Source: Synechococcus sp. PCC 7336 | GTDB lineage: Bacteria > Cyanobacteriota > Cyanobacteriia > Thermostichales > PCC-7336 | Reading direction: 5' to 3' | DNA length: 64,000 nt | Assembly: GCF_000332275.1 (NCBI RefSeq) | Contig: NZ_CM001776.1 | Span: forward strand, 3,656,008 to 3,720,007 | Part shown: positions 17,092 through 27,585 of the stretch, piece by piece | Layout of the letters: each line of letters opens with the position of its first letter | Position numbering within the stretch: the stretch's first letter is position 1 | Notes under the pieces: generated by a model | Seen by the model: only the letters and a program-made list of their open reading frames with translations | Database searches by the model: none | Told to the model about the DNA's origin: nothing | Program-made: the position numbers and the translations under genes

Positions 17092-20000
17092 TTATGCGAC
17101 TGTGGATTGGCGCTCTTGCAGGCCAATGCCGATGAGGAAAGATAGAGCAGCGATGACCGCCTTTTCGCAGTGATAGGGAGAACGCTCGTAGAAGGCACTC
17201 CAGGCGCGGGCTCGCAAACCGCCGTCAAACCGATAGCGATCGCGATGCTCGGGATGCTCTTCCAGCCATGCCAAGCGGACGGCATGACCGATGACTACAT
17301 CCATCACTAGATCGTCTTCGATTTGCAGATCGGGGTTCGCCTCGACAGCCTGCGAGAGGGCCATTAGAGCCTCCACGTTGAGTTGGCGATATTCGGGAGC
17401 TGCGGTTTTGTTGAGCAAATGCTCGATCGCGCGGGCAAAGTTCTGCTCGCCAGGGGTCATCTCTGCCAAAATCAACTGACTGTCGAGGTGGTTGCGGCGC
17501 TCTAATTTATCTCCGATCGCCAACCCTTTACAGTGACCCATCAAGTTCCACACCCGGCGGTAAAAGTCGGGGGGGACGCGGTTGAGACTGCCTTCCATGC
17601 GGCGGCGGCGCAGCCAACCCCCTGCTGGTAGGGGCTCTTGGGCGTCGGGCACCTCCACTTGCTGCAAATCGGGGCGATGGGTGCGAATGTGCAACGATTC
17701 TTGCTGGACGACAGCACGATCGAACTGGTTGTATTCCTCCAATACCTGCTTTAGGTGAGTCTTAATTTCAAAGGGGCTCATGGCCATCATGCGATCGTAG
17801 GCGTCCTCCTGCCCCAACTCAAACGCTTGAGCGATCTCGCCAGTAATCAACAGGATCAAATTGCTCACCCGCAACGTGATGAGATTGTCGAACAAACTGG
17901 GGTTCGAGCGCACTAGCAGGCTCAAGAAGATCGTAATTTCCTGGGTGAGAACGTGCTCCCGCACATCTTCACTGCAAAATCGCAGAATCTTGGCAAAGAT
18001 TTGCTCCTGCGATTGGGGACTGGAAATGGTAGAAGCTTCGGTATAGGCTTTGCCCACCGCCACCACCTTTTGTCGCACTAAAATATCGGTAACTGCATCC
18101 GCCAGTCCAATATCCACTTTGCGCAGCAAGCCCGCTGCCCGTCGCACCACCGACCACAACTGCAGCCGACCCGCTCGGTTGTAAAGCTCGTCCAGCAAAT
18201 CTTGAATGGTGACCTCGAGGCTGTGGTGCCGACCGAAGCCCGTGTCGCAGTCAGCTCCCTCCAGGGGCAGCAACGTACTTAAAACCTCTACCTGCTCGTA
18301 GGGATTGCCCGAGCGTCGCAATCGCTTCAGTAGAGCCTCGACATCCGTTTCGCACTCCAATAATAATTCCTGATTGCTGCTGAGAGGGTGAGTCTCGGCC
18401 TCGTCATATCGCAGGTATGAGGGCAACACTTGCTCGCCCGCCAGAGGTTGGGATACTAATTCGAAGTCGTGCAGATAATCGATCCGCTCGGTCCCCGCCG
18501 TCAGCTTCAATTGGTCGATCCGACCCAACTGCACCGTGACGCCATTGCAACTGCCCTCTTGCAATTCCTGCATGAGATCGAGTAGAGCGGTACTGCCCGA
18601 TCGCAGCAGATTGCGGGTAATCATCAACACCATTGTGGGGCGACCGAGAGTGCGCCAATGTTGTTGCAGGTAAGCCAGTTCGGAGCGGATGGTGGCGACT
18701 AAAAAGTGATAGTCGATGGTGAGGTAGAACTGGCGGCGATCGAGAAAGGCGGGCAGGAACAGAGTGGGTTGACCCTTGAGGCGAAAAATTCGGGAGGTGG
18801 CGAGACTGCGCATCCGCTGCAGGGGACAGCCGCTCAGTCCCAGGCGATCGTTGCGGCCCACCTGCATGTAGGCTTTCGCCAGGCGATCGGCACTCCACAC
18901 CTGAATTGGGACGATTTCTGCTAGCGTTTGGGTGTCGATGCCGCGGGCGGCCAATTCCGCTTGCAAGGGCTTATCTTCCGCTAACAACGCCAGTTGGACA
19001 ATGGGAACGGCTCGCGAGTTGAGGCTATTGCGACGGCCTAAGGGGTCGATATCGGAGACGGACAGCAATCCTTCGGCTACCATTTCGCCCAGTAAATATA
19101 GGCTTTGTGCCCACACCAGTGGCAGGTTGGCATTGGGATAGCGCTGTTGGCTGCCCGGTTGGGCGCGCTCGTCCTCGATCGCGTCGAGGGGTACGAAATA
19201 GAGTTCGGGCAGTAACTGTTGGCCGTCTTTTTCGACTAAGAGGGCCTCGAGTTTGCTGCGGTATGCCTCAGCCCGATCGCGATCGCCCAGACAGAGGGCA
19301 TCCAACAGAGAGTAGGTGAAGAACAGCGGCCATTCGCATTCAATGTGCTCGAACTGCTTCAGTTCTGAGGGCTCGTAATGCAAGCGACGGGTATCTTCGA
19401 TCGCCGTTTGGTGCCCGTCTCGCAAAAACCGCTTGCAGCCGTAGCGGCCCTCTAATTGGTTTCGAATCTTGTTACGGGTGGTTTCGACTAGGTCTCGATG
19501 TTCGACTGCATAGGCGGGGTAACCGATGATGCTGAGGGTGGCGGCGTCCACCTCTTTCGAGCTGGATTCGCGCGGGAGCAGGGACTCTAAGGTGACGCGA
19601 GCGCGGGCGATATCGTGGGCCAAGACGTGAACGACCGAGGCTTGGCCGCCATTGAGGCCGAACAGATTGAAATCGTTCATTGCCTCTAGAGCCGCCTTGG
19701 CCATCCCCACAGAACTGGCGTTGAGTTCGGGCTTGCCGTGGTTGATTTTGTTACCCCGTTCCCAAATGCCGTAATCGGGGGTTTGGTAGGCCTTCCCGAT
19801 ATAAAAGACAAGATTTTGCACGAACGCCACCTCGTCCGAGGTGAAGATGACGCGCAATCCCGAGGCCGTCATTTGAGCCAGAAACAGTAAGAATAATGAG
19901 GTAGCGTCGAGTTGCAGGTGGCCCCACTCTCGATCTCCGACGACTACATCCCCTGTCGAGGTGTCGTATTTGGCGTGCAAGGCGTCGAGAGGATCTTGGC

Positions 20001-20331
20001 TGTGTTTGAACTGCTCCACTTTGTGGGCTTGCTTCATCATGGCAGCCAGAAGGCCGCGCATGAGTTTGACTGTGCTTTGTTCCAATTCGTAGGCGCGACC
20101 GTTGGTGTCGTCAGTATCGCGATAGGCAAGTGCTAGCCCCCAAACGGCCAAAATGCTGTAGACGTTGTCTCGCACCCAGGCATCGGTATAGTCTCCATGC
20201 TCGTTGACGGCAGTGCTGGCTGGCAGCAGGCCGGTGATGGGGTGTTGGCGAGCGAGAATGGTGGCGCGGACTTGGCTGTAGTAAAAGTCGAGGCGCGATC
20301 GCTGCTGGTGAGGTTGGAGAGGGACGGACAA
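17092..20331 (-). CDS. GH15 / phosphorylase-kinase alpha-beta-like protein
   Basis: This is a 1079-residue cytosolic protein. The N-terminal 500 residues resemble the (alpha/alpha)6 barrel shared by GH15 glucoamylases and eukaryotic phosphorylase kinase alpha/beta subunits: DAWVRDNVYSILAVWGLALA, GDREWGHLQLDATSLFLLFL, and FTYSLLDALCLGD. The long C-terminal half (DELYNRAGRLQLWSVVRRAA, EYRQLNVEALMAL) also follows phosphorylase-kinase alpha/beta. A conserved form of this length is common in cyanobacteria, and its activity is not established. A role in glycogen metabolism is a reasonable inference from the fold, and glgA is also in this window. The start ATG is at 20331. Confidence 0.82.
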   Translation of the reverse strand: MSVPLQPHQQRSRLDFYYSQVRATILARQHPITGLLPASTAVNEHGDYTDAWVRDNVYSILAVWGLALAYRDTDDTNGRAYELEQSTVKLMRGLLAAMMKQAHKVEQFKHSQDPLDALHAKYDTSTGDVVVGDREWGHLQLDATSLFLLFLAQMTASGLRVIFTSDEVAFVQNLVFYIGKAYQTPDYGIWERGNKINHGKPELNASSVGMAKAALEAMNDFNLFGLNGGQASVVHVLAHDIARARVTLESLLPRESSSKEVDAATLSIIGYPAYAVEHRDLVETTRNKIRNQLEGRYGCKRFLRDGHQTAIEDTRRLHYEPSELKQFEHIECEWPLFFTYSLLDALCLGDRDRAEAYRSKLEALLVEKDGQQLLPELYFVPLDAIEDERAQPGSQQRYPNANLPLVWAQSLYLLGEMVAEGLLSVSDIDPLGRRNSLNSRAVPIVQLALLAEDKPLQAELAARGIDTQTLAEIVPIQVWSADRLAKAYMQVGRNDRLGLSGCPLQRMRSLATSRIFRLKGQPTLFLPAFLDRRQFYLTIDYHFLVATIRSELAYLQQHWRTLGRPTMVLMITRNLLRSGSTALLDLMQELQEGSCNGVTVQLGRIDQLKLTAGTERIDYLHDFELVSQPLAGEQVLPSYLRYDEAETHPLSSNQELLLECETDVEALLKRLRRSGNPYEQVEVLSTLLPLEGADCDTGFGRHHSLEVTIQDLLDELYNRAGRLQLWSVVRRAAGLLRKVDIGLADAVTDILVRQKVVAVGKAYTEASTISSPQSQEQIFAKILRFCSEDVREHVLTQEITIFLSLLVRSNPSLFDNLITLRVSNLILLITGEIAQAFELGQEDAYDRMMAMSPFEIKTHLKQVLEEYNQFDRAVVQQESLHIRTHRPDLQQVEVPDAQEPLPAGGWLRRRRMEGSLNRVPPDFYRRVWNLMGHCKGLAIGDKLERRNHLDSQLILAEMTPGEQNFARAIEHLLNKTAAPEYRQLNVEALMALSQAVEANPDLQIEDDLVMDVVIGHAVRLAWLEEHPEHRDRYRFDGGLRARAWSAFYERSPYHCEKAVIAALSFLIGIGLQERQSTVA

Positions 20332-20468: not shown

Positions 20469-21347
20469 TTATTGCAAAATCAGCACGGGAACTCCCTGTC
20501 TGCGGAGATTGTCAGCCATGTGACGGGCGTATTCTAGCTGTTCGAATGCGGCCAGTTGAACGTAGGTTTCGTCGCCGAGCTGTTTGACAAAGGCCCCTTG
20601 CGAATACTGTTGCGCTCGAGCCAAGCTGCCATCGTCTTGGTAAGTCATTAAGACGAGAAAGGTGCCCGAACCGAGGTTGGGTCCGAGCCCGTCCACAGAA
20701 GGGGTGACGGGAGTGGCAAACGCCACATTTTGACTTTCAACCTGTTCGGTTGTTGGAGAACCGGCCTCGAAGAGATCTGCTTCGCTAGATTCAGTTCCTT
20801 GCCCCGCAGCGTTCGCAACCGCCTCGCCATCTGGACCGATATCGTTGGCCCGCTGCCACCTAGGATTCGATCGAATGCGAGCTGTTTCAGAGGGAGAGAC
20901 TGGAATCAGAGGTAGTTCTTCCAGCGGAATGCTAATCAGTCCTGTTTCCGGTTGCTGCACCACAGGTGAATCTTGGCGATCGTCTCGGGTCGTCTGCGGA
21001 TTGGGACTTGTCAGCCACGAGAACGCTAGCCCAATGCCCGCAGCAGCAGCCAACAAACTCAGCAGTGCCACAAAGGGAAATAAATTGATGCCTCTGCGAG
21101 AATCGTCTTCCATGTCGAGATCTTCAAAATACGGTTGAGGGTGGGTCGATTGGGGAGGATTCCCCCCTCTGGAAATGTTGCTTGCTTGGCGATCGCCGAG
21201 CGGCGAGTTGACTCGGTTCTCTTGCCAGCGACGAAATGCCTCCAGCTCTTCCTCTGCGTCTAAGTCGAGATAGGCGAGAGCTTGCTGCAGTCGCTTGTCT
21301 GAGGATTGACGTAAATCGGAGTTCGGGCGGGGTGAAAAGGGCTTCAT
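20469..21347 (-). CDS. Single-pass membrane protein with SPOR-like C-terminus
   Basis: This is a 292-residue protein. The cytoplasmic N-terminal part of about 90 residues contains DKRLQQALAYLDLDAEEELE. It is followed by one membrane segment (LFPFVALLSLLAAAAGIGLA), a Pro/Ser/Glu-rich linker, and a C-terminal domain of about 70 residues (GTFLVLMTYQDDGSLARAQQ, YVQLAAFEQLEYARHMADNL, then GVPVLIL) with the layout of a SPOR domain. SPOR domains bind denuded glycan strands at division sites. The stop-to-start gap from the sigma-like gene upstream is 68 bases, and both are on the minus strand, so a functional pair is likely. Whether the N-terminal part binds that sigma-like protein is untested. Confidence 0.65.
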   Translation of the reverse strand: MKPFSPRPNSDLRQSSDKRLQQALAYLDLDAEEELEAFRRWQENRVNSPLGDRQASNISRGGNPPQSTHPQPYFEDLDMEDDSRRGINLFPFVALLSLLAAAAGIGLAFSWLTSPNPQTTRDDRQDSPVVQQPETGLISIPLEELPLIPVSPSETARIRSNPRWQRANDIGPDGEAVANAAGQGTESSEADLFEAGSPTTEQVESQNVAFATPVTPSVDGLGPNLGSGTFLVLMTYQDDGSLARAQQYSQGAFVKQLGDETYVQLAAFEQLEYARHMADNLRRQGVPVLILQ

Positions 21348-21415
21348 GTCACCTTAGAGGCCAACTGACAGAGGGAAATCTCAATGGGAGTGGAAAGACC
21401 TTCCAGCTCAATAGG

Positions 21416-22021
21416 CTAGAAAAATAAACTGAGGATGTCGCTTGGTAGTAATTGTAACAATCTTTCGCGCGATCGCGAAATAGCCTGCTGCACCTGTTCC
21501 AACGATAGCGCATATCCTTCAGCGGCCAATTGAGCGCTAATTTGCTCGGGCTGCCATTGAAACACCTCGGCGAAGACCAGAATAAATCGCAGATCCCCCG
21601 GCAGTGAGGCGATCGCCTGTTGTAGGTAGCACCACAGTGGCGGAGATACAGCGGCACTGCCGCGAGCAAGTCGGCTGTCTGGTTCGATCGACCCTGGCAA
21701 TTTCGGGGCTGGCAGTTGGGGGAAGACTTGGGGCAGTTGAGTTGTTATCCACACATCCAGGCGCTCCCATTGGGGAGCGGTGTCGTCAGCATCGAGCCAA
21801 GTTTGGTAAAACTGCTGCCAGAGTCGATTCAGGTAGTGGGCACGTTCGGCAGGTTGCGGACAAAAGCGGCGGACGAGTTCTTTGAGTAAAGCGCGATAGC
21901 GGCAGTAAAGGGCAACTGAGTAGCGTCCCGACTCGGGATGGAGCTGCAGCATTTGCACGAGTTCGCGATCGGAGAGCGAGTCGAGCGATCGCACCATTTG
22001 GCTGTCACAGGGTGTGGGCAT
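21416..22021 (-). CDS. Sigma-70/ECF-like protein, degenerate
   Basis: This is a 201-residue protein. The N-terminal part (SDRELVQMLQLHPESGRYSV, ALYCRYRALLKELVRR) resembles sigma region 2 of ECF-type factors. The C-terminal part (ASLPGDLRFILVFAEVFQW, SLEQVQQAISRSRERLLQLL) resembles region 4, with an extended helix-turn-helix. Conservation is weak, so it may be a diverged sigma factor or a regulator derived from one. The next gene, on the same strand, encodes a single-pass membrane protein, an arrangement like sigma/anti-sigma pairs. The start (MPTPC) lies 11 bases after the cysH stop, on the same strand. Confidence 0.6.
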   Translation of the reverse strand: MPTPCDSQMVRSLDSLSDRELVQMLQLHPESGRYSVALYCRYRALLKELVRRFCPQPAERAHYLNRLWQQFYQTWLDADDTAPQWERLDVWITTQLPQVFPQLPAPKLPGSIEPDSRLARGSAAVSPPLWCYLQQAIASLPGDLRFILVFAEVFQWQPEQISAQLAAEGYALSLEQVQQAISRSRERLLQLLPSDILSLFF

Positions 22022-22032
22022 GGGGGTGAAAA

Positions 22033-22794
22033 CTACAACGAACTCGCGTTGAGACTATCGGCTTCCCCTCGCGTCAGGGGCAAGTGCAAGCCGCACTCTT
22101 GTTTGAGGCCGTTAAAGCGGGTGTCGCGCTCGTCGGTATCTTCTAGCGAAAGCGGACGGCTGGAATGCCAATCGCCCACGCTGGTGTAGCCGCGATCGAA
22201 GAAGGGATGGTAGGGCAGGTCGTGGGCTGTGAGGTATTCGTAAACATCTTTTGCACTCCAGTGCAGGATTGGGTGCAATTTAACAATGCCCGACTGCATC
22301 TCAATGCGACGGAGGGTTTTGCGGTGATTGGTTTGGCTGGTGCGCAAACCTGCCAGCCACGCCATGGCATCGAGTTCGCGCAGGGCACGCCACATGGGCT
22401 CCACTTTGCGGATTTGATTGTAGCGATCGAGGGACTCAACCGTATTGTCTTCCCACAAGCGTCCGTACAGTGCTTCCATGCGGGCGGGGCTCATGGTGGC
22501 TTGGTACACCTCGATATTGAGCTGTAACCGCTCGATCAGCTCTTCTGCAAATTGATAAGTCTCGGGAGGTAAATAACCGGTATCCACCCAAATCACGGGG
22601 ATGTTGGGGATAATCTGGGTCACCAGATGCAGCATCACGGCCGCTTGGATGCCGAGGCTACTGCTCATGACGAGGCGATCGCCAAACATCTCGGCCCCCC
22701 ATTCCACAACCTCTCGGGCGCTAGCATCGGCTAAGCAGCGATTGGCTGTATCCAGGTCGATATTGCAGTTGAGTTCGAGGGATTTCAAAACCAT
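22033..22794 (-). CDS. cysH: Phosphoadenylyl-sulfate (PAPS) reductase
   Basis: This is a 253-residue protein. It reduces PAPS to sulfite with thioredoxin in assimilatory sulfate reduction. It has the PP-loop-type N-terminal fold ([19 protein letters not shown]), the [15 protein letters not shown] motif, [12 protein letters not shown], and the C-terminal catalytic Cys in ECGLHL. The CC...CxxC iron-sulfur ligands of APS reductases are absent, which argues for PAPS rather than APS as substrate. ATG 22794 is preferred to GTG 22815. It may be cotranscribed with the sigma-like gene that follows 11 bases later. trxA is also in this window. Confidence 0.93.
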
Positions 22795-23100
22795 ATCGAA
22801 CGAGAGCGGCAGCACGAACGCAGCCCAACAATGTTACGACATGCCAAGCTCCTTGGTCCGAACTCGACATGGCTCTCTCCTAGGGTACAGGAGAACTCAG
22901 CAGACGACAGGCCGTTATCCTACCCCCGCCAAGAAGTGATTGATTTTACCTTACGGATCTCAAACGGTTACTTACCTAGAGAGAGATCCGTACTTTTGAG
23001 CAGAACTTAAGGTTGTTTTTTATCGACTGTGCTGCACAATACGGCGGAAATCTCGATATCCTAGGAGCAATTACGGTGGGCTTGAGATACAAATTTTGCC

Positions 23101-25443: not shown

Positions 25444-27585
25444 CTACACCGCCACATAGGTGGAACTGAGGGTAACCCGCTTGGCGTGGGATAGCAAGTG
25501 CAGTCCGCCATCGCTTGCAGGAGCCAGTTCTGCCATCAGGGTTTCTGCAAACTGGAGCGGTCTCGGTAATGATAGCAGCCCGCCGCTGGCCCCCATCTCT
25601 TTGGCAAATTCCCGCAATAGGCGATCGGTCTCCGTTAGGGGTTCCGTACTGGCGATCGCAAACACTTCCGCCAGTCCCCCAGGTGCTCGGACCGCCAGCT
25701 TCATCCCCAGCAATTCGGCCAAATCGAGCTTGGTTTGAGGCGGGATCGCGATCGCGGGGAGCTCTTCATCTGACGGATGAGCCAGGGCACACAGCGCACC
25801 CAGTCCGTCTAGCACCAACACTGCAGCATACAGGGGCCGATCGCCGCGATTGTCGAGGGCATAGGATAGCGGCGTTCCCATCGCCAGTTGTGGCATGCCG
25901 CCATCACTGTTGCCTTGACGCAGTAGCGGCGTACGATTGGTCGCTATAGCAGTTCCCTGCTGCCAGCGGATCGATGCGCTGGCAATCTCCAAAACCAGGG
26001 GCAGAGCGGAAGCGCTTTCGTTGATAGTTGCCCGCAACCGCTTGGCCGCCAATAGATGCTGCAGGCGATGCACCAACCGCTGTACTGCCCCTTTGGGGGC
26101 TTCACCTGCTTCACCAAACGTATCCAGAATGGGGACTCTGCCCGATCGCAACAAACCATAGCTACCCAGGGGAGGAGGCTCCGGCAGACTGGCTTGCAGT
26201 TCGGGGGTCATGCGGCCAAACAGACAATCCACCTGGCGCTCGTGCAATTTCGCCGTTTCGATCGAGTGTAATTCTCCCGCCAGCGATGTACTGGACAGAG
26301 CACTGGTGGCATCCACTTTCTCAATCCGCGTCAAGCTGTCGTCGAGGGCGATCGCTAACTTAACTGCCGCCAGTGCCCGCTGTACCTCTGACACCAAAGC
26401 CCCCTCCTGTGGCGGAGTCGCTTCTGTCAGGGTCTCGTCCAAGCCCAGCGTTGCCGTCAACTTATCCCGCGACTTCAGCACCCATTCGCTGCCACCGTCA
26501 TAACAGCGGAACCGCGTTCCCACCCCCAAAAATGGCAGAATCATGGGCGGAATCCCCCCCAGCCAGAGCTCCGCCCGCGTTCCCTCCACCGTTTGAATGG
26601 CTCCTGCAATTCCCCCCTCGACAGTTGCCGAAGATAGCTTTGAGTAGGGGCGATCGGGTTGATTGCCCTTACCGTGGAGCGCCAATTTCTCTGGACGGGC
26701 CGCCACCTGCTCCGCTTTAATGCGGGCGATCTGAAACACCTGCCGCCAGGTATCCGAGGCTGCGCTCTCCCATAGAGATTGGGTCAGCAGATAGGTGAGC
26801 AATCCGGCACTAAATCCATCCCATACTCCTTCTGCCGCAGGTTGGCCCAGAGGGGCAGCTAACAGCCAAGTACCGCTGGTGCGATCGATGCGGCTGGGGT
26901 CGAATGTCCCGGGCACCGAGGTGCGATAGTCTCGAAAGATCTGTTGCTGGCGCTCTAGCACGGCGGGCGCAAATTGATAGCCTTCCGCGATCGAGAGATC
27001 GGCAGGCGATCGCAGCCGCCAGTTTCCCTCTGCCGCAGCCTTTGCAGACTGAAAGCCACAATCGAGCACGATGCTGATGCGTTTGCTGGGGAGGGCTTGA
27101 ACTAATAGAAAGAGGGTTTCTAACGGTAGAACGTTGGCAGTGTCGGTGGAGATATCGCTGGAGAAGTCTGCCGGTAGCAGCACTGAGGTACCGTCTGGGA
27201 GGGTCTGACCGTAGCCGCTGAAGTGAAAGACAATCGCATCATCGGGGCTGGCCTGCTGCACGAGATGGGTTAAAAAAGTGTCAGCGATCGCCTCTCCTGT
27301 CGCATCTGTATCGGCTAGGGTGACGATCTCGTCAAAGCCGAACCGATATTCCAGCACCTCCTGCTGCAGTGCGACATCTGTGCCACTACCCGCCAGGGGG
27401 GTGAGGGGATCGGCATAGCGATCGATCCCCACTAGCAAGGCCAGCTTTCGTCCCGTAGTCGCTGCAAAAGCACTACCATACGTTTGCGATCGGCAGGTTG
27501 CCAACCACTCTAGGGCGGGGGCTAACGCCAAGCCAGCAACGCCACAAGCTCCCCGAGTCAAAAATTCGCGTCTGCTCGTACTCAC
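25444..27585 (-). CDS. Tat-exported caspase-fold protein lacking the catalytic dyad (orthocaspase-like)
   Basis: This is a 713-residue protein. The N-terminus has a twin-arginine signal (SRREFLTRGACGVAGLALAP). Residues about 45-290 form a caspase (C14) p20-like domain: RKLALLVGIDRYAD, a DDAIVFHFSGYGQ strand where active family members have SGHG, and ISIVLDCGFQS where active members have D(S/C)CHSG. Both catalytic positions are therefore replaced (His to Tyr, Cys to Gly), and proteolysis is not expected. The C-terminal region (VLEIASASIRWQQGTA, RPLYAAVLVLDGLGALCALA) resembles the DUF4384-type domain often fused to cyanobacterial orthocaspases. Inactive orthocaspase-like proteins are known in cyanobacteria. 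It is monocistronic. Confidence 0.85.
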   Translation of the reverse strand: MSTSRREFLTRGACGVAGLALAPALEWLATCRSQTYGSAFAATTGRKLALLVGIDRYADPLTPLAGSGTDVALQQEVLEYRFGFDEIVTLADTDATGEAIADTFLTHLVQQASPDDAIVFHFSGYGQTLPDGTSVLLPADFSSDISTDTANVLPLETLFLLVQALPSKRISIVLDCGFQSAKAAAEGNWRLRSPADLSIAEGYQFAPAVLERQQQIFRDYRTSVPGTFDPSRIDRTSGTWLLAAPLGQPAAEGVWDGFSAGLLTYLLTQSLWESAASDTWRQVFQIARIKAEQVAARPEKLALHGKGNQPDRPYSKLSSATVEGGIAGAIQTVEGTRAELWLGGIPPMILPFLGVGTRFRCYDGGSEWVLKSRDKLTATLGLDETLTEATPPQEGALVSEVQRALAAVKLAIALDDSLTRIEKVDATSALSSTSLAGELHSIETAKLHERQVDCLFGRMTPELQASLPEPPPLGSYGLLRSGRVPILDTFGEAGEAPKGAVQRLVHRLQHLLAAKRLRATINESASALPLVLEIASASIRWQQGTAIATNRTPLLRQGNSDGGMPQLAMGTPLSYALDNRGDRPLYAAVLVLDGLGALCALAHPSDEELPAIAIPPQTKLDLAELLGMKLAVRAPGGLAEVFAIASTEPLTETDRLLREFAKEMGASGGLLSLPRPLQFAETLMAELAPASDGGLHLLSHAKRVTLSSTYVAV

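Follow-up and report, generated by a model that had tools for sequence, protein, structure and literature searches.

A diverged ECF-sigma fold linked to a SPOR-fold membrane protein in cyanobacteria

We analysed two neighbouring open reading frames (ORFs), ORF A and ORF B, in a 64,000-nucleotide stretch of Synechococcus sp. PCC 7336 (NZ_CM001776.1, positions 3,656,008 to 3,720,007 of the forward strand; hereafter the window), which comes from a single-contig genome of 5,066,637 bases. ORF A is confidently predicted to adopt the fold of an extracytoplasmic function (ECF) sigma factor, with region 2 and then region 4 in order, and ORF B is predicted to be a single-pass membrane protein with a C-terminal SPOR fold. 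The pairing of the two is a genuine evolutionary linkage, beyond chance. Our preferred reading, to which we give roughly even odds (about 0.5), is that ORF A derives from an ECF sigma factor, has lost many of its contact residues for polymerase and promoter, and works at the membrane with ORF B as an adaptor or sigma mimic placed by the SPOR domain. A first-pass annotation of this DNA had described two adjacent, co-directional genes 68 bases apart, and coordinates and strand confirm this layout:

21416..22021, minus strand: ORF A, 201 residues, ATG start; cyanobacterial sigma-fold protein (predicted) with diverged ECF regions 2 and 4
21713..21973, minus strand: region-2-like domain, ORF A residues ~17-103 (VIA-align to E. 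coli sigmaE region 2; HHalign)
21422..21655, minus strand: region-4-like domain, ORF A residues ~123-200 (Pfam Sigma70_r4_2; VIA-align to SigW region 4)
21348..21415, minus strand: intergenic gap from ORF A to ORF B, 68 bp
20469..21347, minus strand: ORF B, 292 residues, ATG start; predicted single-pass membrane protein with C-terminal SPOR-fold domain
21219..21290, minus strand: conserved N-terminal motif, ORF B residues ~20-43, starting LQQALAYLDLDAEEELEAFRRWQ (alignment and pattern search)
21036..21092, minus strand: predicted transmembrane segment, ORF B residues 86-104 (hydropathy)
20664..21035, minus strand: linker from membrane to SPOR domain, ORF B residues 105-228 (alignment A2)
20472..20663, minus strand: SPOR-fold domain, ORF B residues ~229-292 (AlphaFold2; structural matches in the PDB)

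The resemblance of ORF A to a diverged ECF sigma factor, already suspected in the first-pass annotation, was upheld by structure prediction and profile comparison. AlphaFold2, supplied with an alignment of 30 homologues (A1), returned a model with a mean predicted local distance difference test (pLDDT) value of 91.4 and a predicted template-modelling (pTM) score of 0.85. A Foldseek search of this model against the PDB listed only ECF sigma chains in rows 1-22, of which two reached E ≤ 0.001. With VIA-align, region 2 matched E. coli sigmaE (4lup; Z 7.9, root-mean-square deviation (rmsd) 3.2, 89 residues aligned) and region 4 matched SigW (6jhe; Z 7.8, rmsd 1.4, 53 residues aligned); these Z values are middling when taken alone, and their weight comes from sigma factors filling nearly all of the 50 rows shown, the absence of other fold families from such lists carrying no evidential weight. 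HHalign of the family profile with five ECF sigma factors covered both regions (probability 97.3%, E = 2e-11, 186 columns). The profile alignments also revealed ~5 extra residues within the region-4 helix-turn-helix of ORF A, and the A family has a conserved PPLWCY-like segment between regions 2 and 4. When the profile was compared with PDB sequences, SigG1 of Streptomyces came first (E = 1.5e-4); we regard the many TAL-effector rows that ranked lower as noise from repeat composition.

Scores with curated domain models stayed below the cut-offs. The single-sequence Pfam scan of ORF A found Sigma70_r4_2 (E = 7.9e-5, 22.7 bits) below its cut-off of 25.7 and no Sigma70_r2 match, the outcome for the single sequence of the proposed search for sigma regions with hidden Markov models (HMMs). 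NCBIfam likewise yielded weak ECF models (e.g. TIGR02937 with 11.1 bits against a cut-off of 42.9), and among 30 family members scanned at E ≤ 1, r4_2 was matched in 25 and r2 in two.

To see what the fold has kept, we compared the same number of family members (30) with 23 ECF controls, namely E. coli RpoE, three ECF sigma factors of the window's own genome, L090 and 18 others from the class; the last 18 came as weak matches of the family profile, and any bias they introduce is therefore towards the family. In region 2.2, the position of sigmaE D48 carries D or E in 23/23 controls and in 0/30 family members (two gaps), and that of sigmaE E52 in 23/23 controls against 2/30; both positions, we take it, face the core polymerase in ECF sigma factors. 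The N80 position of region 2.4 is S or N in all 23 controls and in none of the 30 family members (two gaps), and the N84 position is D or N in all controls against D in two family members. The -35 contact positions listed in an excerpt of PMC6713349 include T169, R171, S172 and R173. At the first, T is present in 23/23 controls and one of 30 family members; S172 is S or T in 23/23 against 1/30; R173 is R in 21/23 controls, against R or K in 9/30; and R171 is K or R in 23/23 against 15/30. R176, R178 and F175 vary among the controls too and do not discriminate, and the mapping was made without R149. Two aromatic positions are retained, the equivalents of F54 and W73 being W in 30/30 members. 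Judged from these alignments, the A family is one in which the sigma fold is kept and many RNA polymerase and promoter contact positions are eroded.

ORF B had been described as having a cytoplasmic N-terminus, one membrane segment and a SPOR-like external domain. Hydropathy gives one hydrophobic segment, residues 86-104, with an Arg-Arg pair close to it on the N-terminal side, and we infer that the N-terminus is cytoplasmic. Pfam SPOR (PF05036) matched ORF B only partially (E = 0.02, 15.6 bits, cut-off 21); of five relatives scanned, two passed the cut-off (22.5 and 21.4 bits), two fell under it and one was unmatched, and a Pfam search for SPOR in genome G000 gave no match at E ≤ 0.001. The curated score was thus missed; the fold itself is supported by the AlphaFold2 model of the last 77 residues (alignment A3, 20 relatives), a beta-alpha-beta-beta-alpha-beta arrangement with pLDDT 87.5 and pTM 0.74. 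Its top Foldseek row was the SPOR domain of CwlC (E 0.036, probability 0.99). The top three VIA-align rows were SPOR domains as well, CwlC with Z 6.9 and RlpA twice with Z 5.9, all middling values, and one RlpA structure among the top rows was solved with denuded glycan (6i09), the ligand that SPOR domains bind, as the title of that entry says. The SPOR domains of DedD (Z 5.1) and DamX (Z 4.1) stood lower in the list, among unrelated folds. Together, these results bear out the membrane segment and the SPOR-like domain, and where the weak Pfam scores on their own (SPOR at E = 0.02 and no region 2 in ORF A) would have pointed to an artefact, predicted structures and profile comparisons showed otherwise.

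Near its N-terminus ORF B has a motif, LQxALxSLDVxLEEELxRYRR, whose first L and E-L are invariant across 14 aligned B proteins. A pattern search retrieved 51 distinct forms of it among 117 ORFs with SPOR hits, many of them redundant or partial sequences or SPOR proteins of another type, and no match in non-SPOR ORFs of at least 150 residues in the loci scanned, i.e. those up to 16,000 bases (L229-L232, L234 and L235 are longer and were left out). The residue before the motif's final L, where the pattern allowed E, D or Q, was E in 51/51 forms; the final L is fixed by the pattern and is not a free count. Even among SPOR loci with weak hits, the motif was present in 18/20; G126 has a variant recognised by eye, and the SPOR protein of G095 is of another type. 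Neither Pfam nor NCBIfam matched an anti-sigma family to ORF B at E ≤ 5, though it may have a minimal one that the models do not recognise.

We then asked how A and B are distributed in 145 genomes of the class, counting A at family level when E ≤ 1e-10. Family-level A was present in 127 genomes, usually as a single copy, and two further genomes, G011 and G069 (129 counted), had ECF-level matches only. Among the matches listed, A and B were adjacent and co-directional in 22/145 genomes: the window, 7/8 genomes of family f2, G027 (f21), 12/12 of f24 and G065 (f30). In the remaining f2 genome, G008, the SPOR gene after A is broken (L056, 751-2033) by a frameshift, a stop or an assembly error. 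In G065 (L178, 2721-4184) there are two tandem copies of A, the second of which overlaps the SPOR gene by 4 bases.

In another 8/145 genomes, A and B form one reading frame. These are G020, G039, G052, G075, G085 and G113 (f14) and G095 and G104 (f33), i.e. 8/8 genomes of two families that we take to be Gloeobacterales (Gloeobacter relatives and Anthocerotibacter). Inspected by eye, these single frames are laid out as sigma domain, B motif, transmembrane segment, linker and SPOR domain; the motif directly follows the sigma domain in the fused L174 (LQLTLQGLEFDLDLEREGFRQWYSQQ) and similarly in L175, and is shorter in f14. Adjacency or fusion spans seven families. The first-pass annotation had staked its claim on a sigma fold and on linkage in other genomes. 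Both were found, and the claim survives in part: co-occurrence took the form of 22 adjacent and eight fused cases, whereas 97 of the 127 genomes with A showed no adjacency.

In a tree of 78 A rows, linked or fused states and unlinked states are separated by three changes, and the linked and fused states cluster. One of the three changes is due to coding, G002 (L059) having been entered as linked and L111, nearly a copy of it, as unlinked; the idea that a contig end splits the pair in G002 was rejected, since 1.2 kb after A lack the B motif, and this genome was counted as unlinked. The fused rows with L178, and then the window with f2, branch beside the midpoint root, and f21 and f24 form a single linked clade amid unlinked rows. 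From this we read an ancestral linkage, most of which was lost later, but long branches meet in this part of the tree, and root and branching order are uncertain; the pairing is either old or recurrent. Tracing of A on plasmids gave no match. Among 194 genomes of the phylum, 108 were unmatched, and outside the class the matches listed held only ECF-level ones in two genomes (9.9e-5 and 3.6e-6).

Where A and B part, each has recurrent neighbours of its own (assigned from mechanical ORFs, with the labels DUF721/DciA-like, CobD-like, yebC-like, malQ-like and 'secreted' given by eye). Among the named A loci, the best 80 of 224, a secreted tetratricopeptide-repeat (TPR) protein of ~350 residues lies downstream of A in 54 (e.g. 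L062, 7206-8240, and L066) and B in none; five of the loci without the TPR gene extend < 1,200 bases downstream. The TPR protein also follows A in ten of the first relatives. Nine of the first loci have a divergent gene ahead of A; the single one scanned matched glyoxalase weakly.

For B away from A, a PspA/IM30 gene lies downstream in 19/33 fetched loci, and a divergent gene resembling DUF721/DciA is present in 30/33; the 40 SPOR loci fetched were mostly better-scoring matches and are not a random sample. Loci with this PspA/IM30 and DUF721/DciA-like context are L055 (8550-9798), L210-L214, L221, L222, L224, L227, L228, L236-L240 and L244-L247, some with tandem PspA-like pairs. G027 combines the contexts, with A, B, a small holin-like membrane protein and PspA in a row. 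Absence is shared as well: A and B are both missing from 13/13 genomes of f3. G028 and G043 are without A, and their SPOR matches are other proteins without the motif; the SPOR match of G069 (E = 1.2e-4) is a 166-residue frame.

Counted in favour of the preferred reading were the sigma and SPOR folds, the adjacency and fusions with their clustering in the tree, the joint absence in f3 (with G028 and G043), the contact loss and the PspA/IM30 context of B. We propose that ORF A descends from an ECF sigma factor and would have retained the fold while losing many polymerase and promoter contacts. The N-terminal motif of ORF B, given its predicted topology, would dock on ORF A or lie beside it on the cytoplasmic side of the membrane. 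In the periplasm the SPOR domain, if it binds glycan, would place the complex at peptide-stripped peptidoglycan, i.e. at division sites or damaged wall. The role of ORF A there would be that of an adaptor in the cytoplasm or of a sigma mimic with a regulator as its ligand, and not that of a promoter-reading sigma factor freed by an anti-sigma factor. A shared A-B complex at the membrane is likely on present sequence evidence, because A and B are evidently able to function within a single chain, as in the fusions; adaptor or mimic is preferred to a released sigma factor because A lacks several standard sigma contacts; and B probably places the complex at sites of peptidoglycan remodelling because SPOR domains bind denuded glycan. 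If A does not read promoters, it is a sigma fold turned to another use, as in PhyR but with an anchor in the wall, and would be a candidate to partner a cyanobacterial SPOR-type component of the envelope or of division. The link between a sigma fold that seems to have lost its contact residues and a membrane protein that can probably grip the wall points to reuse of the fold for reporting on the envelope or organising it, and with the fused form this partnership can be tested directly.

A number of observations weigh against this reading. Whole-chain Foldseek TM-scores of ORF A are ~0.3, and only the separate domains match well. The residue mapping crosses the five-residue insertion, and some DNA binding by ORF A is still compatible with the alignment, because R stands at both the R176 and the R178 position of the window's protein and half of the family (15/30) still has K or R at the R171 position. 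For ORF B, the 15 residues on the N-terminal side of the membrane segment carry a net charge of -4 and the 15 on the C-terminal side one of 0, which taken alone does not speak for a cytoplasmic N-terminus, although the Arg-Arg pair is near the membrane. The absence of adjacency from 97/127 genomes with A also counts here, a figure that applies to the matches listed, weak SPOR places in some genomes (e.g. G072 and G102) falling outside them. Finally, each protein occurs without the other: G018 and G037 have a very diverged A and no detectable B, G140 has a motif-bearing B without A, and G011 has a B match with only an ECF-level A. In L085 and L086, from the two f12 genomes, a very diverged A without a detectable SPOR partner stands between yebC-like and malQ-like genes.

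Two of the alternatives are specific forms of the preferred reading, and their odds overlap with it. The first of these, which we hold to be somewhat unlikely as stated, is a scaffold for division or wall remodelling, with ORF B as the cyanobacterial stand-in for FtsN, DedD or DamX, ORF A as its cytoplasmic adaptor and no link to transcription. FtsN, DedD and DamX are bitopic SPOR proteins of the divisome, and ORF B shares their architecture of N-terminal segment, one transmembrane segment, linker and C-terminal SPOR fold. The DedD and DamX domains among the structural matches agree with this, as do the fusions, which fix the sigma fold to a transmembrane segment, and ftsN is listed as undetected in cyanobacteria in an excerpt of PMC4748335. 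Unlike these proteins, however, ORF B has a different N-terminal motif, a sigma-fold partner and a frequent PspA/IM30 neighbour. Next to B, PspA/IM30 and divergent DUF721-like genes recur; no division gene was noticed in the loci examined, where none was searched for, and the 13 f3 genomes without either gene indicate that the pair is not universally needed for division. Tentatively, and with slightly more confidence than in the scaffold, we would go as far as a widespread cyanobacterial sigma fold, derived from an ECF sigma factor, that has left transcription and now forms the cytoplasmic part of a SPOR-anchored complex where peptidoglycan is remodelled or cells divide, with an FtsN-like role, and whose fused form in the presumed Gloeobacterales preserves or exposes that complex.

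A second alternative retains transcription. ORF A would be a genuine ECF sigma factor, though a strongly diverged one, and ORF B would keep it at the membrane as an unusual anti-sigma factor. Once the SPOR domain lost its hold on the wall, or through proteolysis, it would be freed to activate envelope genes, the fused forms being freed by proteolysis. This is close to what the first-pass annotation had proposed, an arrangement like that of a sigma/anti-sigma pair, and the sigma fold, the single membrane segment and the pairing itself did hold up. The full fold of regions 2 and 4, the gene order with a single-pass anchor as in such pairs, and the tryptophans at the F54 and W73 positions in 30/30 members all argue for it. 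Group 4 (ECF) sigma factors such as E. coli RpoE and B. subtilis SigW share the two-domain fold and were the top structural matches of ORF A, and RpoE-RseA, SigW-RsiW and the cyanobacterial SigG-SapG pair (from an excerpt of PMC2758279) likewise place a sigma-fold protein before the adjacent gene of its partner. In contrast to those sigma factors, ORF A scores below the curated Pfam and NCBIfam cut-offs, has mostly lost its contacts and carries the ~5-residue helix-turn-helix insertion and the PPLWCY-like segment; in contrast to those pairs, ORF B has an external SPOR fold and no recognised anti-sigma domain, is fused to A in 8/145 genomes and is not seen next to A in most genomes that have A. 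A standard promoter-acting pair is not supported by the comparison, and we regard this alternative as unlikely. Were it true, A would be an overlooked regulator that could tie the state of the wall to gene expression.

We give a similarly low rating to the other specific form of the preferred reading, a sigma mimic of the kind of PhyR, the regulator of the alphaproteobacterial general stress response. ORF A would bind an anti-sigma factor or another sigma-binding regulator, ORF B would set its availability, and envelope state would act on transcription indirectly. PhyR, a published precedent, combines a correct ECF fold with promoter and core regions that have degenerated (excerpt of PMC8103513), the condition in which we find ORF A, and its sigma-like domain is among the VIA-align rows (3t0y_C; Z 7.7, rmsd 12.0, 117 residues aligned), a match that has a large rmsd, however, and ties with many ECF sigma factors. 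Unlike PhyR, ORF A has no receiver domain (a Pfam scan at E ≤ 5 matched no such family) and its partner is a SPOR membrane protein; no partner anti-sigma factor is known, and no search for one was made. Chance neighbourhood of a sigma-like gene and an unrelated SPOR protein, for which the 97 genomes without visible adjacency might speak, is highly improbable; we rejected it on account of the fusions and of linkage being spread over seven families, with 12/12 f24 genomes having the genes as neighbours and 8/8 of f14 and f33 having them as single ORFs.

ECF sigma factors with fused C-terminal extensions reportedly include ECF41 and the SnoaL-type SigJ. Fused A-B resembles them in having an extra C-terminal domain and differs in that the extension consists of a transmembrane segment and a SPOR domain. 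Members of the A family that pass the Pfam cut-off would presumably fall into the K.1 'region-4_2 only' family of Gevin et al. 2024 as it appears in an excerpt (PMC11119718), a label from which the predicted fold departs by having region 2 too. SPOR is not among the most represented accessory domains of cyanobacterial sigma factors quoted in that excerpt. Types SigF to SigJ are named for cyanobacteria in PMC2758279, and the A family was not met in the available parts of either paper. Among the papers listed from the open-access literature on SPOR, anti-sigma factors, cyanobacterial ECF sigma factors and FtsN, as far as titles and the starts of abstracts tell, there was no description of the A family or of the A-B pair.

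In the window, a CysH-like 3'-phosphoadenosine 5'-phosphosulfate (PAPS) reductase gene (22033-22815; Pfam E = 2e-55) ends 11 bases upstream of ORF A. It was dropped as a candidate operon partner, as six f2 loci have an aminotransferase/CobD-like gene before A. Downstream of ORF B, positions 17092-20331 encode a 1079-residue protein resembling GH15 and the phosphorylase-kinase C-terminal region, and further away, at 25444-27585, there is a 713-residue ORF that by eye resembles a caspase-like peptidase with a twin-arginine-like start.

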